Shown here in pieces: positions 43,025-49,013 of a stretch of DNA of 64,000 bases. The notes under the pieces are model-generated. The model was not told the origin of the DNA. It searched no databases and was given only the letters and a program-made list of their open reading frames with translations. Both the position numbers and the translations under genes were made by a program. Source of the DNA: Chitinophagales bacterium. Its GTDB lineage: Bacteria; Bacteroidota; Bacteroidia; Chitinophagales; Chitinophagaceae. The DNA lies in assembly GCA_026931905.1 (NCBI GenBank), contig JAIXLB010000008.1:1-64000 (forward strand), given 5' to 3'. Numbering within the stretch: the first letter of the stretch is position 1; every line of letters begins with the position of its first letter.

Positions 43025-43612
43025 TTATTTTTTCCAGCTAATATTTATTTTTGTTGAAACGCCTTTGCCTGTAGGGTCTTCTGCATAACGAATTATATAA
43101 AATTCTTTTCCAAATACCCAAGCATAATTTTCTGTTATTGTAGAATCGGCAGAAGTGAAAATTGTTTTTATATCTATTCGTTTTATAACGTTTGTATTTT
43201 TTGCATCTAACATTACACTAATATTTTTTACAGGCAAGCTATCTTTTTGTGTTGTGTAATTAAGTATTGTACTTTTTGTAGTTAAGTCTGTAAATACTTG
43301 TTCGTTGTAAAAACTCTTGAGTGGTGGTTGTGTTATATTTTGTTCTGTTATTTTATTTACTATACTTTTAAAATCGTTATTGTTTATTATGCTTATTATT
43401 TCTTTACCAGTTTCGTTGGTAAAGGTTTGCATCAGTTTAGTTTTATTTTTTTCTAAACTATCTGCTTCATTTTTTATAGCTGAAATGTAAGGATAAAAAG
43501 GCAGTGTATCTGTATTTACTTGCTGGGTAGCAACAACAGGAGTTTGTTTGTTTTTTTCTTTACAGCCAAATACAGCAACAAGCATGATAAAAATAATTAT
43601 TGTACTTTTCAT
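43025..43612 (-). CDS. Hypothetical lipoprotein upstream of uvrC
   Basis: 195-residue protein with a lipoprotein signal (IIIFIMLVAVFGC, lipid Cys about 17). The rest has a helical stretch (about 40-100) followed by beta strands (LNYTTQKDSLPVKNISVMLD, NVIKRIDIKTIF, WVFGKEFYIIRYAED). I do not recognise a family. It is 13 bases upstream of uvrC on the same strand and so probably cotranscribed, but a repair role is not suggested by its location outside the cytoplasm. Confidence 0.7.
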   Translation of the reverse strand: MKSTIIIFIMLVAVFGCKEKNKQTPVVATQQVNTDTLPFYPYISAIKNEADSLEKNKTKLMQTFTNETGKEIISIINNNDFKSIVNKITEQNITQPPLKSFYNEQVFTDLTTKSTILNYTTQKDSLPVKNISVMLDAKNTNVIKRIDIKTIFTSADSTITENYAWVFGKEFYIIRYAEDPTGKGVSTKINISWKK

Positions 43613-43727
43613 ATTTATAACTTAATTGCACGAAAGTATTTTAAATAATTTTAAGAAAAAATATTATACCAGCAGGGTTACTATTTTTCTTTTATAGAAA
43701 TTAATATCTAATTAAAACTTATTGGCT

Positions 43728-44816
43728 ATGTGTAAAAATATTTTTTTATTAACTATTGCTTTATGTTTTTCTGTATTGGCTTTTGCAAATATGGCTTCTC
43801 CCATAAATCCAGGAACAATATCAAGTTCAGCAATATCCAGTAAAAACATAAATATTACTTCGGAAAATATTTTTATAAAAATTAATAAAGATTTTACAAC
43901 AGCAAAATATATTGTAGAGTACAACATTCAAAGCAATGTAGCTGGTAAGCAAATGCCTTTGTTGTTTTATGCAAAAGATTATAAAGATAATTTTATGGTT
44001 TGGGTTGATAACAAACCGGTATCTGTTAAAAGTTTGTCTGAATTAAATATTGATCAATCTTCTTTTTTAAAGTTGTATGAAAATGGCAACGATTCAACTA
44101 AAGTTGCAATAAGTTTTGATAGAAATGAAAGAGCATCTTACGAAATAAATGACTTGAAATATTTTGAAATAGATGTTGAAAAAGGGAATCATGTAATAAG
44201 AGTTGAGTATGTTGCAAAAGCATGGATTGATAAATCGGATTGGGTTAAAAAATATTCTTTTCATTATTCGCTTTCGCCTGCAAAGTATTGGCAATCTTTC
44301 TCGAACCTTACCATAAAAATTGAACAAGAGGGTAGTGTAAATGATTATACTACTAATTTAGGTTTGCCTAACGAAAATAAAATATCAAACCTCCATACTT
44401 GGAATTTTAAAAACTTACCATCAGATTTTATTACTATAAATTTTCAGCCCAAACCTAATACATTAGCAGCTTTTTTGATTTCATTAGAACCTTTTGGTAT
44501 TGCTGTAATTCTTTCTATTATTTTAATGTTACTGCATTTGTATTGGGTAATTTGGTATAGAAGAAAAAATATTTCCAAAAAGTTTTCTGCACCAGTAATT
44601 ATTGGTAGTTTTCTTGTTCCTTTTCTTTATTTATTCATCTATATCAATTCCTATTCTGTAATAGATAATATTATTGGTAAAGATGCAAGTAACTGGCATG
44701 GGTATTATGTTTTAATTATTATTTTTTATCCATTTATACTAATAGCTTATTGGGTAGTATTTTGGTTGATAGATAAACTGTATAAAAGAAAATTATTGAG
44801 TAAACAAGTAGATTAA
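43728..44816 (+). CDS. Unknown membrane protein with exported domain
   Basis: 362-residue protein that I cannot assign. It has an N-terminal signal peptide (cleavage after LAFA, about residue 21) and an exported beta-rich domain (about 30-250) with many strands such as AKYIVEYNIQSNVAGKQMPLLFY and NHVIRVEYVAKAW. Three C-terminal membrane helices follow (about 255-280, 293-315 and 328-352), with a short Lys-rich cytoplasmic end. The exported domain reads like an immunoglobulin-like or peptidase-associated sandwich; no catalytic motif is visible. The ATG at 43728 is preferred over a TTG two codons earlier. It shares its stop (TTAA) with the convergent gene at 44813. Confidence 0.7.
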   Translation: MCKNIFLLTIALCFSVLAFANMASPINPGTISSSAISSKNINITSENIFIKINKDFTTAKYIVEYNIQSNVAGKQMPLLFYAKDYKDNFMVWVDNKPVSVKSLSELNIDQSSFLKLYENGNDSTKVAISFDRNERASYEINDLKYFEIDVEKGNHVIRVEYVAKAWIDKSDWVKKYSFHYSLSPAKYWQSFSNLTIKIEQEGSVNDYTTNLGLPNENKISNLHTWNFKNLPSDFITINFQPKPNTLAAFLISLEPFGIAVILSIILMLLHLYWVIWYRRKNISKKFSAPVIIGSFLVPFLYLFIYINSYSVIDNIIGKDASNWHGYYVLIIIFYPFILIAYWVVFWLIDKLYKRKLLSKQVD

Positions 44817-46231
44817 AAAATTTCTTTTGTAAAACCAATTCTTAAACCATCGTCTAACCTGTATTCTTTAATAGGATATTTATCTGTGTAGGTAGGTAAA
44901 TGTTGGTAACGAACTTGTGGGCTAACAAATATATTGTAGCTGCCAACCTTGTAGGTAAAATTGATTTCTAAACTTGTATTAAAGTTCCATTTTCTGAAGA
45001 AAGAATTTCCATCAGTATAATATTTATAATCTGTAGAAATTAAATAAACATTTTTATTAAGCGTTAATGTAGGTTGAATACTTGCACCTAAACTTATTCC
45101 AAATTTTTTGCCATCGAGTAATTGCCATTGTAAACCTAAAGGAATAGAAATTTGGTATAAACTATTTTTTAAAATACTTGATAAACTACTACCTGTTGTG
45201 CTTTGTGTAGAAATTTGATTTATGGTATCTAAGCCATTGTTAGAGATAATGGCAATTTGTGCAATACTTGTTCCGCTTTTATAACTATCAATATAATACT
45301 TACGAATATTGAATTGTAAGCCTGTTCTAAATTTTAATTTGTTATTCAATTTATAAAGCATACCAACACCAGCTTCTAAACCTAATGCTGGTTTATGACG
45401 TACTACATCATTAATATTTGTATAGTATTGAGTAGGAAGTGAAGTTGTATTAGCATCTTTTGATGTTATTAGAATACGAGATTTATCATCAACTAATCTT
45501 CTGAAACTTATACTTGGAGTAGCATACACTTGCAATTCAAATTTAGAAGATTTACGTTTTACTGTAATAGGGGTTGTTGTATAATTATTGTAACTATTTA
45601 TTAAAAGTTGGTTACTGAAAATTTTATTACTTAATTTTTGTGTACCAACTAACTGAATATTTTTTTTAGTTTCTTGTGGTAGGTTATTTTCAGTTGTAAA
45701 GGGTTCTGTAATATTTTCAATAAAATTACTTTCACTTTCATTGGTATTTAAAGCATGTAGATTATTGAAATTATTGATACTATTGGCAGCAATTAAATAA
45801 GATGATGGTAGATTATTTAATTGTTGTGTTGTAGTTGTTAAATTCGTAAGTTGCTTAACATTGCTCTTAACATGAACTATAGAGGAACTTGATAAATTAT
45901 TTAATTGCTTTTTAGTGTAATTAGAAGGAAAAATATTGGTTGCAAATACATTATTTTGAGTAGAGGTAGTAGAGCTTGTGTTTTTTTGTTGATTAAAACC
46001 AATTAAAGCAGCAGTATAATTGGGTTTTACAGGGTTATCATAAATGTAAGTAGATATACACAGTGCAATAATAATTAATAAAGATACAATAGTAAGGGCA
46101 CGCCAACTTTCTGTTGCATGCAGTTCATTGAAAATATTATTCCAAACTTTAGAATCAGGGAAAGAGTTAAAATTATCGGATTCGGTTTGTAAAAAATCTT
46201 CAAAATTATCCTTATCGTATCTGTTGTTCAT
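44813..46231 (-). CDS. Putative dual-membrane-spanning anti-sigma factor (head-TM-linker-barrel)
   Basis: 472-residue protein with unusual architecture. Residues 1-44 are a charged cytoplasmic head (DNFEDFLQTESDNFNSFPDS, then VWNNIFNELH). Residues about 45-64 are one membrane helix (ALTIVSLLIIIALCISTYIY). Residues about 65-230 are a Asn/Thr/Ser/Gln-rich, probably disordered linker. Residues about 235-472 are alternating strands of an outer-membrane barrel with aromatic girdle residues, ending in Phe. The ECF sigma gene ends only 18 bases upstream. Dual membrane-spanning anti-sigma factors (Dma) have been reported in Bacteroides thetaiotaomicron; the layout here matches. An alternative is an ordinary PorT-like barrel with an uncleaved anchor. 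Start ATG 46231, not the GTG before it. Confidence 0.65.
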   Translation of the reverse strand: MNNRYDKDNFEDFLQTESDNFNSFPDSKVWNNIFNELHATESWRALTIVSLLIIIALCISTYIYDNPVKPNYTAALIGFNQQKNTSSTTSTQNNVFATNIFPSNYTKKQLNNLSSSSIVHVKSNVKQLTNLTTTTQQLNNLPSSYLIAANSINNFNNLHALNTNESESNFIENITEPFTTENNLPQETKKNIQLVGTQKLSNKIFSNQLLINSYNNYTTTPITVKRKSSKFELQVYATPSISFRRLVDDKSRILITSKDANTTSLPTQYYTNINDVVRHKPALGLEAGVGMLYKLNNKLKFRTGLQFNIRKYYIDSYKSGTSIAQIAIISNNGLDTINQISTQSTTGSSLSSILKNSLYQISIPLGLQWQLLDGKKFGISLGASIQPTLTLNKNVYLISTDYKYYTDGNSFFRKWNFNTSLEINFTYKVGSYNIFVSPQVRYQHLPTYTDKYPIKEYRLDDGLRIGFTKEIF

Positions 46232-46249
46232 CACTTATTTTAAAAGTGT

Positions 46250-46825
46250 TTATTTTAAATTTGCAATCCAGTTCAATTCGTCTTTGCTACTACTAATAAT
46301 TCCTTTCTTAATTAAAATAGATTCTAAAATACCTTTTGCTCTTGTATATTGACTTCTGCTTGTGCTTTCTTGTATTTCTAACATTTCAGCAATTTCTTTA
46401 TGACTATACCCCTCAATTGCATACAAGTTAAGTACAGTTCTAAATCCTATTGGCAATAATCTTATACATTCTACAACTTGTTTGGCTAATAAAATAGTAG
46501 ATAAACTATCTTGTTTTGCATGAATATTAGCTGCATAAGCTAAATCCAAATTATCGGAATGTTTTTTATTTTTTTTAATATAATTAATACAACTGTTTAC
46601 AATAATTCTTCTAACCCAACCTTCAAAAGAACCCTTGTTTTGAAATGTATGAATTTGAGAAAATATTTTTATAAAACCTTCTTGCAAAATATCCTGTGCA
46701 TCATTTTTATTATAAGCAAATCTGTAACAGATGCCCAACATCTTTGAACTGTATTTATTATACAACTCTCTTTGAGACAATGCATCATTTTTTATACATC
46801 CTTCTATTAAGATTTGCTCAGTCAT
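46250..46825 (-). CDS. ECF sigma factor paired with dual-membrane protein
   Basis: 191-residue ECF sigma factor. Region 2: MLGICYRFAYNKNDAQDILQEGFIKIF and GSFEGWVRRIIVNSCINYIKK (about 30-90). Region 4: LPIGFRTVLNLYAIEGYSHKEIAEMLEIQ and ESTSRSQYTRAKGILESIL (about 125-180). The next gene, 18 bases downstream, encodes the head-TM-linker-barrel protein, so the pair is almost certainly cotranscribed and the neighbour is the likely anti-sigma factor. The start codon abuts an 8-bp inverted repeat. It differs in sequence from the orphan ECF factor at 40311. Confidence 0.92.
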   Translation of the reverse strand: MTEQILIEGCIKNDALSQRELYNKYSSKMLGICYRFAYNKNDAQDILQEGFIKIFSQIHTFQNKGSFEGWVRRIIVNSCINYIKKNKKHSDNLDLAYAANIHAKQDSLSTILLAKQVVECIRLLPIGFRTVLNLYAIEGYSHKEIAEMLEIQESTSRSQYTRAKGILESILIKKGIISSSKDELNWIANLK

Positions 46826-46859
46826 AGGGAGTTCAAATTATTATCACTCCCTAAAAGTA
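46825..46859 (-). promoter_or_regulatory. Inverted repeat and -7-like box at ECF sigma start
   Basis: TAGGGAGT (46825-46832) and ACTCCCTA (46846-46853) are perfect 8-bp arms around a 13-base AT-rich centre. The start-proximal arm ends at the A of the ATG. On the minus strand TACTTTTA (46852-46859) resembles the -7 element and touches the distal arm. The repeat could be an operator or a hairpin hiding the start codon. Confidence 0.5.
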
Positions 46860-46957
46860 AGACAATTTTTCTTAACAAATGCTGCAATTTTTATGAATAG
46901 TTTTTGGTAATAAAAATGGCTCAAAAAATTAGAGAAGAGGTGTTGTTTTAAAATCAA

Positions 46958-48736
46958 TTATCTGTTATTTTTAATTTGCCATTTTTTCTTAGGATTGTAT
47001 AATTTCTCAGCTGTTTGGAGTAGTCTTATAAATTCTTGCTTGGCATAATCATTAGCACTAATGGCAGAGGATGCTATTTTGTAAATATCTATAAAGTCAT
47101 AATCATTTGCATATTTTGATTGTTTGAGCAATGAACCAAACATGGCTACAGATGTTGCAAATTTTATGGAAGGCAAAGCGTTATTGAAAAGCGTTATAGT
47201 ATTTTGAATGGCTAAATTTTGATTTAAAATTATATGGTTATTATCTACTAATTTATATTGTAATTCAATGTTTCCAATATTGATGCTACTATCCATATTA
47301 TTTTCTAATCCTTTTAATTCAAAAATGGCAATCATACTATGAGCACTGCCCACTTCTCCTCCTTCTAATTCGCTATTTTTATCTACAATAGCAGCAACCC
47401 TGTTATCAAAACCAATTAAGCGATACTCTTTAATATTATTTGCATTAAAAGAAATATTTAAAGTTGCATCATTGGCTACAGCATACATTGTTTTTGTAAA
47501 CTCAGTTACTAATACTTTTTCTGCTTCATATAAATTATCGATGTAAGCAAAATTTCCTTTGCCGCTTTTAGATAAAATTTCTAATTTACTATCCTTATAA
47601 TTTCCCATTCCTACACCTAAACAAGTAAGATAAATGCCACTTTGTGTATATCGTGTAATAAGTTCCTGTAAAGCTTTTTCAGATGTTACGCCAACATTAA
47701 AATCTCCATCAGTAGCCAAAATAACTCTGTTGTTACCACCAGGTATAAATGTTTTTGCAGCAGCAGCATAAGCAGTTTGTATAGCAGCTTCGCCAGGAGT
47801 ATCTCCAGAAGCCGATAAAGAATCTATAACATTTTTAATAACCTCTTTTTCCGAGCCATTTGTAGCATCTAAAACTTTTGCAACTCCGCCACCATAAATT
47901 ACAATTGTTACATAGTCAATATCTCTTAAATTATCTACCAATTTTTTAAAGGATGCTTGTAAAAGTGGCAATCTATTGGGTTTATCCATTGAGCCAGAAA
48001 CATCAATTAAAAAAACAAGGTTACTGGGTGGTAATGTATCTAAATTTAATTTGGGGGCTTTAATGTGTAGAAACAATAAATTGCTTTTATTATTCCAAGG
48101 ACAAGTGGTTAAATAATGATGAATAGCAAATTTATTTTTAGCATCTTGTGCATTATTATTATCAAATTTATAGTCAAAATAATTGAGCATTTCTTCTATT
48201 CGTACAGCATTGGTAGGTGCCTTAATTCCATTGTTTAAAAATCGTCTGATATTGCTGTAAGAAGCTCGGTCAATATTTAAAGTAAAACCTGTTTCAGGAT
48301 ATTTTGAAGTATTAAAAAAATCATTTTCAACCAAACTACTATAACTTTCTCCATTGCTTGATAACAAATTATATTGTTCAGAAAAAAATTGCTTTGTTTT
48401 AGAGCATAACCCATTTTTAATTTTGTTTGGATTAGTTGATAACATTTTTAAAACAAAACTTTGATATTGTCTTACATTCACTGCTTTTTTTAAAGGCTCA
48501 TAACCTAATAATGATAATATTATAGTATCAACTTCTAAATTAGTAGGAATTCCAAAAGTGCCTGCACTACCACTTTTATAAGAAAAAGAATAAGCATTTT
48601 TTGAGTATAAATTTATTTTTACATTTGGCAATACATTACCTTTTTCATCTTTTATTTCGCCTCTTAAATAAAATTGTGCAGATACAGGTTTTGCCAAAAC
48701 ACTTAAAAATAGTATGCTTAATAAAACAAGTTTCAT
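46958..48736 (-). CDS. Exported vWA (YfbK-type) protein with CarboxypepD_reg-like domain
   Basis: 592-residue exported protein. After a signal peptide (cleavage after VSAQ, near 21) comes a CarboxypepD_reg-like beta domain (about 22-95: GEIKDEKGNVLPNVKI, SLLGYEPLKKAV), then the YfbK N-terminal segment (NTSKYPETGFTLNIDRASYSNIRRFL cut by APTNAVRIEEMLNYFDY). A vWA domain with intact MIDAS motif DVSGSM (about 245-250), DTPGE and ATDGDFN follows, then the DUF3520-type C-terminus. vWA domains bind metal and partner proteins. It lies 132 bases upstream of the ECF sigma gene on the same strand. Start ATG 48736, not the preceding TTG. Confidence 0.85.
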   Translation of the reverse strand: MKLVLLSILFLSVLAKPVSAQFYLRGEIKDEKGNVLPNVKINLYSKNAYSFSYKSGSAGTFGIPTNLEVDTIILSLLGYEPLKKAVNVRQYQSFVLKMLSTNPNKIKNGLCSKTKQFFSEQYNLLSSNGESYSSLVENDFFNTSKYPETGFTLNIDRASYSNIRRFLNNGIKAPTNAVRIEEMLNYFDYKFDNNNAQDAKNKFAIHHYLTTCPWNNKSNLLFLHIKAPKLNLDTLPPSNLVFLIDVSGSMDKPNRLPLLQASFKKLVDNLRDIDYVTIVIYGGGVAKVLDATNGSEKEVIKNVIDSLSASGDTPGEAAIQTAYAAAAKTFIPGGNNRVILATDGDFNVGVTSEKALQELITRYTQSGIYLTCLGVGMGNYKDSKLEILSKSGKGNFAYIDNLYEAEKVLVTEFTKTMYAVANDATLNISFNANNIKEYRLIGFDNRVAAIVDKNSELEGGEVGSAHSMIAIFELKGLENNMDSSINIGNIELQYKLVDNNHIILNQNLAIQNTITLFNNALPSIKFATSVAMFGSLLKQSKYANDYDFIDIYKIASSAISANDYAKQEFIRLLQTAEKLYNPKKKWQIKNNR

Positions 48737-49013
48737 CAATACTTTAACTTCGTGAAAAATAATAACGCATTTTATTAAAAAAACTTATAAAAATGTCTCT
48801 TTATTTTTTATGGACTTAAATATACAAAGTTGTATTGCATTGAAGCTATTTATTTTATCACATTTCAACTCTAAAATATACGTTTTTTAACAGCTTTTAA
48901 GCATAATTTTTAAATTAATACAAATAGTAAAATATAAAACTTTATTTTGCTGCCCTAATTGTGTTGAATATCATTTTTGAATAACACATTTTTTAAAACT
49001 TAAAATAAAATAA

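Follow-up and report, generated by a model that had tools for sequence, protein, structure and literature searches.

We analyzed a 64,000-nt stretch of DNA, here called the window, from contig JAIXLB010000008.1 of the Chitinophagales bacterium assembly GCA_026931905.1. On its minus strand, an ECF sigma factor gene is followed by the gene for a 472-residue partner that is a putative anti-sigma factor. The features of the locus are listed below.

46858 to 46885, minus strand: predicted operon promoter, GCAGCATTTGTTAAGAAAAATTGTCTTA, with a -35-like GCAGCA, 15 nt, and a -10-like TGTC
46250 to 46825, minus strand: ECF sigma factor gene (191 aa; Pfam regions 2 and 4)
44813 to 46231, minus strand: gene for the 472-aa partner, a putative anti-sigma factor (open reading frame from ATG)
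46103 to 46231, minus strand: predicted cytoplasmic sigma-binding head, residues 1 to 43 (two helices with an invariant Trp30)
46040 to 46102, minus strand: predicted inner-membrane helix, residues 44 to 64 (AlphaFold helix and flanking charge)
45542 to 46039, minus strand: predicted disordered Asn/Thr/Ser-rich periplasmic tether, residues 65 to 230 (low pLDDT)
44816 to 45541, minus strand: predicted C-terminal outer-membrane barrel, residues 231 to 472 (PF13568, pLDDT, and PDB matches)
43722 to 44816, opposite strand: gene inserted between the anti-sigma and lipoprotein genes, also present in locus L005
43025 to 43612, minus strand: putative lipoprotein, 195 aa, the syntenic third gene (Cys17 invariant in 15 homologs)

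The sigma gene product matches Sigma70_r2 (2.7e-17) and Sigma70_r4_2 (1.4e-11) in Pfam. Exactly 18 bases (46249 to 46232) separate its stop codon from the ATG of the partner gene, which reproduces the order, open reading frames, and gap described in the original prediction; the partner frame extends to an alternative GTG at 46234. We found that the pair is kept in 25 family loci with a spacing of -4 to 75 nt, counting the stop codon. Because this tight spacing is maintained, the pairing is not due to chance. The window sigma factor is 57 to 75% identical to its family relatives, except for L027, the most distant of them, with which it shares 34%.

We built an AlphaFold model of the 472-residue protein with 25 aligned sequences. 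The charged cytoplasmic head that had been noticed from the sequence alone appears in this model as two helices, at residues 7 to 20 and 27 to 37, and its VWNNIFNELH motif occupies residues 29 to 38, with Trp30 invariant across the 25 aligned sequences. The membrane helix, placed earlier at about residues 45 to 64, is predicted at residues 44 to 64. Across the family, the mean net charge is +2.0 just ahead of this helix and +0.4 just behind it, which fits an N terminus that is inside. The tether, estimated before at roughly 165 residues, is 166 residues long in the window, and 43% of these are Asn, Thr, or Ser. Its pLDDT is about 30 to 43 over most of its length and below 50 throughout residues 66 to 219. 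Tether length in the 25 sequences ranges from 137 to 223 residues (mean, 172 ± 19). Mean identity within the family is 68% for the sigma factor, 39% for the head, 39% for the barrel, and 12% (mean pairwise) for the tether.

The strands of the barrel (residues 231 to 470) are modeled with a pLDDT of mostly 82 to 98, and OMP_b-brl_2 (PF13568) matches residues 271 to 436 in Pfam (1e-8). The last residue is Phe, so the proposed C-terminal barrel ending in Phe agrees with both the model and the sequence. When residues 227 to 472 were compared with the PDB, they matched OprF (Z 17.7; rmsd 2.2 over 131), NspA (Z 17.6), OmpA (Z 16.5), and OmpW (Z 16.3). An NCBIfam scan of the anti-sigma protein returned no curated family. 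The original prediction depended on a barrel and on an anchor that is not a cleavable signal peptide. The model of 44813 to 46231 contains the barrel, and a signal peptide at the N terminus is ruled out, as the length and conservation of the 43-residue head ahead of the 21-residue helix exceed those of a signal peptide.

It had also been proposed that the head be modeled together with the sigma factor. We joined the two in one chain by an artificial read-through of two in-frame TAA codons (TAA read as Q). The head helices, which have a pLDDT of 62 to 67 without the sigma factor, reached 95 to 97 in the joined model (pTM 0.83), and thus AlphaFold predicts a contact between head and sigma factor. 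The sigma part of this model resembles SigW bound to RsiW (Z 14.4; rmsd 4.7 over 153), with both domains superposed, and other anti-sigma-bound sigma factors (CnrH/CnrY, Z 12.5; SigK, Z 12.4; RpoE/NepR, Z 11.7). Polymerase-bound SigH aligned with it only at an rmsd of 26 to 27. These comparisons support, but do not prove, the interpretation of the joined model as an inhibited sigma/anti-sigma complex. Among the fetched loci, there were no natural fusions of sigma factor and head. The partner is very likely an anti-sigma factor.

We searched 61 genomes, the window's own and 60 relatives. There was a match in 26 of them, all members of the same genus or family as the window. The window genome gave one more whole-protein match (L002), a weak match to the linker (E 9e-4) in an unrelated frame, which was taken as chance. 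In most relatives, the genes recur in the order sigma factor, anti-sigma factor, lipoprotein of about 195 aa, and uvrC. The lipoprotein encoded at 43025 to 43612 belongs to no Pfam family; as a conserved neighbor, it could be a partner of the pair. In different lineages, the pair again has a small lipoprotein-like gene next to it (L183, L185, L189, L191, L211, L046-L049, L055, and the window). The products belong to unrelated families: NigD, DUF4943, or no Pfam family.

Upstream of the sigma gene, GCAGC-N15/16-TGTC was present in 22 of 26 relatives, 27 to 38 nt ahead of the start codon and rarely with N16; of the 26 loci compared, L019, L023, L025, and L027 lacked it. Only 0.01 such sites are expected per set of shuffled upstream sequences. 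From its position only, we infer that GCAGCA-N15-TGTC is the promoter read by the window sigma factor, and the motif predicts feedback on its own operon. In the whole genome, we found four motif sites and none for a reversed control pattern. One of the four precedes a gene for a SusC/RagA-type TonB-linked receptor. The motif also stands ahead of the orthologs of this gene, 87% and 64% identical to it, in another two genomes of the genus, and ahead of SusC-like genes in three further genomes. A SusC-like outer-membrane receptor is probably a target of the sigma factor, judging from these sites. The larger genomes give several matches to the control pattern, and single motif sites there therefore mean little. 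We left out of the targets a PorV gene and an aldehyde dehydrogenase gene that follow a motif in relatives. The conserved promoter of the sigma/anti-sigma operon and the motif that it shares with SusC-like receptor genes are new here. In two genomes of the genus (L294 and L299), an open reading frame of 493 aa has the GCAGC-TGTC motif 20 nt ahead of it. The two copies are 83% identical, and the one scanned, L294, matches nothing in Pfam or NCBIfam.

With a profile restricted to the head, we found matches in 244 of 295 sampled genomes of the class. In all 109 loci read (107 distinct), the gene immediately upstream of the head gene encodes an ECF sigma factor; the two genes overlap by at most 71 nt or lie at most about 112 nt apart. 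Most of the loci used to build the profile have a sigma neighbor, but adjacency played no part in the search. The window genome has about ten ECF sigma genes, and the chance of adjacency in such a genome is well under 1%. Conservation of sigma adjacency among homologs, which the original prediction had named as a check, thus holds for the 25 family loci and for the 107 distinct loci across the class. We then placed the sigma factors in a FastTree phylogeny, in which many forks are weak or open. The sigma factors that partner a head group together on one side, apart from the FecI types and from seven other ECF sigma factors of the window genome. One further sigma factor of that genome, L278, lies inside the head-partner side and has no head gene beside it. 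The head profile also finds members in Bacteroidaceae (E 8.8e-8 to 1.5e-3 per genome). The window sigma factor and the Bacteroides partner sigma factors share one large set, within which the Bacteroides sigma factors are a separate clade (98% local support) and those of the window family, leaving aside L027, form their own (99%). On contig C9 of the window genome, a second Dma-type head stands behind another ECF sigma gene and is cut by the contig end (L283).

The class-wide survey suggests that the same head can be joined to a fused barrel, to a type IX secretion system (T9SS) sorting domain, or to a short tail, in which case the barrel has its own gene. When 106 head proteins were scanned, 46 matched PF13568 and 22 matched PF13505, counts that may overlap. 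About 20 have only a short tail; in 19 of the 21 examined, a separate open reading frame follows directly, mostly with a signal-peptide-like start, and 13 of 17 of these frames match PF13568. Short anti-sigma proteins of this split version, about 220 to 290 aa, were seen at L074-L078, L082, L084, L086, L090, L091, L102, L105, L111, L112, L116, L125, L130, and L147. Many of the split-version sigma factors adjoin the window's fused family in the tree and are the loci nearest to it. Comparison of split and fused forms could address whether a covalent link is needed for a signal to cross two membranes. Another 11 of the 106 proteins match CHU_C, mostly together with PKD domains, and all three CHU_C members scanned pass the NCBIfam cutoff for the T9SS type B sorting domain. 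These heads also stand behind an ECF sigma gene (L127, L132, L137, L145, L150, L156, L166, L168, L172, L174, and L175). By their domains, they are apparently anti-sigma factors addressed to the T9SS. Our literature search found no fitting report of an anti-sigma factor that carries a T9SS sorting domain, although this does not prove that the arrangement is new.

Dma proteins begin with an anti-sigma domain at the N terminus, continue through a membrane helix and a long disordered tether, and end in a barrel. Their genes adjoin those of ECF21 sigma factors, and they are said to occur only in Bacteroidota (PMC13088901). The original prediction named Bacteroides thetaiotaomicron as the precedent, which is correct (PMC13088901) but incomplete, as the design is also found in B. 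fragilis and Phocaeicola. There, Reo with EcfO (P. vulgatus and B. fragilis) has the same layout and is induced by envelope-targeting toxins and by a BamA-inhibiting peptide (PMC9308784, PMC13114119). When an anti-sigma factor of this type is lost in Bacteroides and Phocaeicola, the sigma factor is freed and its regulon is induced (PMC13088901, PMC9308784). By sequence and model, the window protein has the Dma layout, and it does so in another family of the same class, in line with the proposal of a related system in another branch of the phylum.

The window pair differs from each of these systems. It shares with Dma1/Dma2 and Das1/Das2 of B. thetaiotaomicron the head, the single membrane helix, the disordered tether, the barrel, and the adjacent ECF sigma gene (PMC13088901); however, it lies in another branch of the class beside a lipoprotein gene and uvrC, and the likeness is to the described layout. 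The Reo head also has the Trp motif; similarity to the Reo barrel is partial (hhalign probability of 92.6% over 73 columns). The neighbor of EcfO-Reo is NigD, whereas that of the window pair is the unrelated lipoprotein and uvrC. We rejected orthology with EcfO-Reo, as the window sigma factor falls in its own clade and the window's genome has no NigD gene. The Bacteroides loci used here are themselves presumed to be EcfO-Reo from layout, the NigD neighbor, and distribution. In Dma3 of B. thetaiotaomicron, a sigma domain is fused to the N terminus; its sigma factor is likewise linked with head, membrane helix, and barrel, but the window has two genes. FecR/FecI-type surface signalling, with sigma factor, anti-sigma factor, and SusC/TonB receptor, also connects an outer-membrane receptor to an ECF sigma factor. 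In the window, by contrast, receptor and anti-sigma factor are one chain, and the sigma factor is far from the FecI type in the tree.

To our knowledge, the design is known experimentally only from Bacteroides and Phocaeicola, and it now appears in another family, in a conserved operon for which a promoter and target genes are predicted. We propose that the pair is of the Dma/Reo kind, with a probability of about 0.8 for sequestration, tether, barrel, outer-membrane signal, and promoter use taken jointly. The pairing, architecture, head-sigma contact, and conserved promoter are drawn from sequence or prediction, and we infer the sequestration of the sigma factor, its regulon, and the signal. 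In the proposed mechanism, the head (residues 1 to 43) would hold the ECF sigma factor in the cytoplasm, away from RNA polymerase. Residues 44 to 64 would span the inner membrane, the disordered tether of conserved length would cross the periplasm, and the C terminus would form a small, OmpA-like barrel embedded in the outer membrane. Stress, a ligand, failed assembly, or altered spacing could change the state of the barrel or of the outer membrane; this change would travel along the tether, and the head would let go or be lost. The freed sigma factor would then transcribe from GCAGCA-N15-TGTC promoters, its own operon first, in a feedback loop, and probably that of a SusC-like receptor.

How the sigma factor is released could be explained in more than one way. 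One candidate is the direct release by an outer-membrane event that the original prediction put forward, with neither proteases nor a separate receptor. It is a real possibility, short of even odds, that the same pair works instead by regulated proteolysis, the usual route for membrane-bound anti-sigma factors (PMC4183432, PMC8844934). An envelope signal would then open the tether or the membrane helix to cleavage by site-1 and site-2 proteases, as for RseA or RsiW, and the barrel would be a gate shielding the tether. Proteases could readily attack a periplasmic tether that is long and disordered. Moreover, the split loci, with a short anti-sigma factor and a separate barrel gene, are nearest to the window family in the sigma tree, and therefore the covalent cable is not indispensable. 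However, the tether, at 12% identity, has no conserved cleavage motif, and the Dma-type literature searched does not report anti-sigma proteolysis as a mechanism. The opposite idea is that the tether is a ruler selected for length and not sequence. The chain would carry position or tension, and movement or blebbing of the outer membrane, or its failure to seat the barrel, would release the sigma factor mechanically with no proteolysis; we regard this as unlikely.

Another alternative, which we consider doubtful, is that the function of the protein resides in the barrel, as in any small outer-membrane protein, and that the head and membrane helix only tune the sigma factor to how much barrel is made or assembled, as an assembly checkpoint and not a sensor of outside events. 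The barrel is as conserved in sequence as the head, failed assembly would strand the protein in the inner membrane, and the BamA-inhibiting peptide is among the reported Reo inducers (PMC9308784, PMC13114119). In other members, however, the barrel gives way to a short tail or to a sorting domain of the T9SS type, and the function that all members share therefore cannot be that of the barrel. That the protein is no anti-sigma factor at all, only an outer-membrane protein with an uncleaved anchor beside a sigma gene by accident, is highly improbable: sigma adjacency was seen in every distinct locus read, the head is modeled with confidence only with the sigma factor, and a separate set of sigma factors accompanies the head in the tree.

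Two further variants of the head were observed. Seven loci (L107, L109, L128, L129, L163, L164, and L166) have two head-like motifs in tandem ahead of the membrane helix. One scanned member, most likely the 697-aa head-membrane helix protein at L159, has vWF_A/VWA/YfbK domains; in the window, the gene at 46958 to 48739, upstream of the sigma gene, also carries vWF_A/VWA/YfbK domains.
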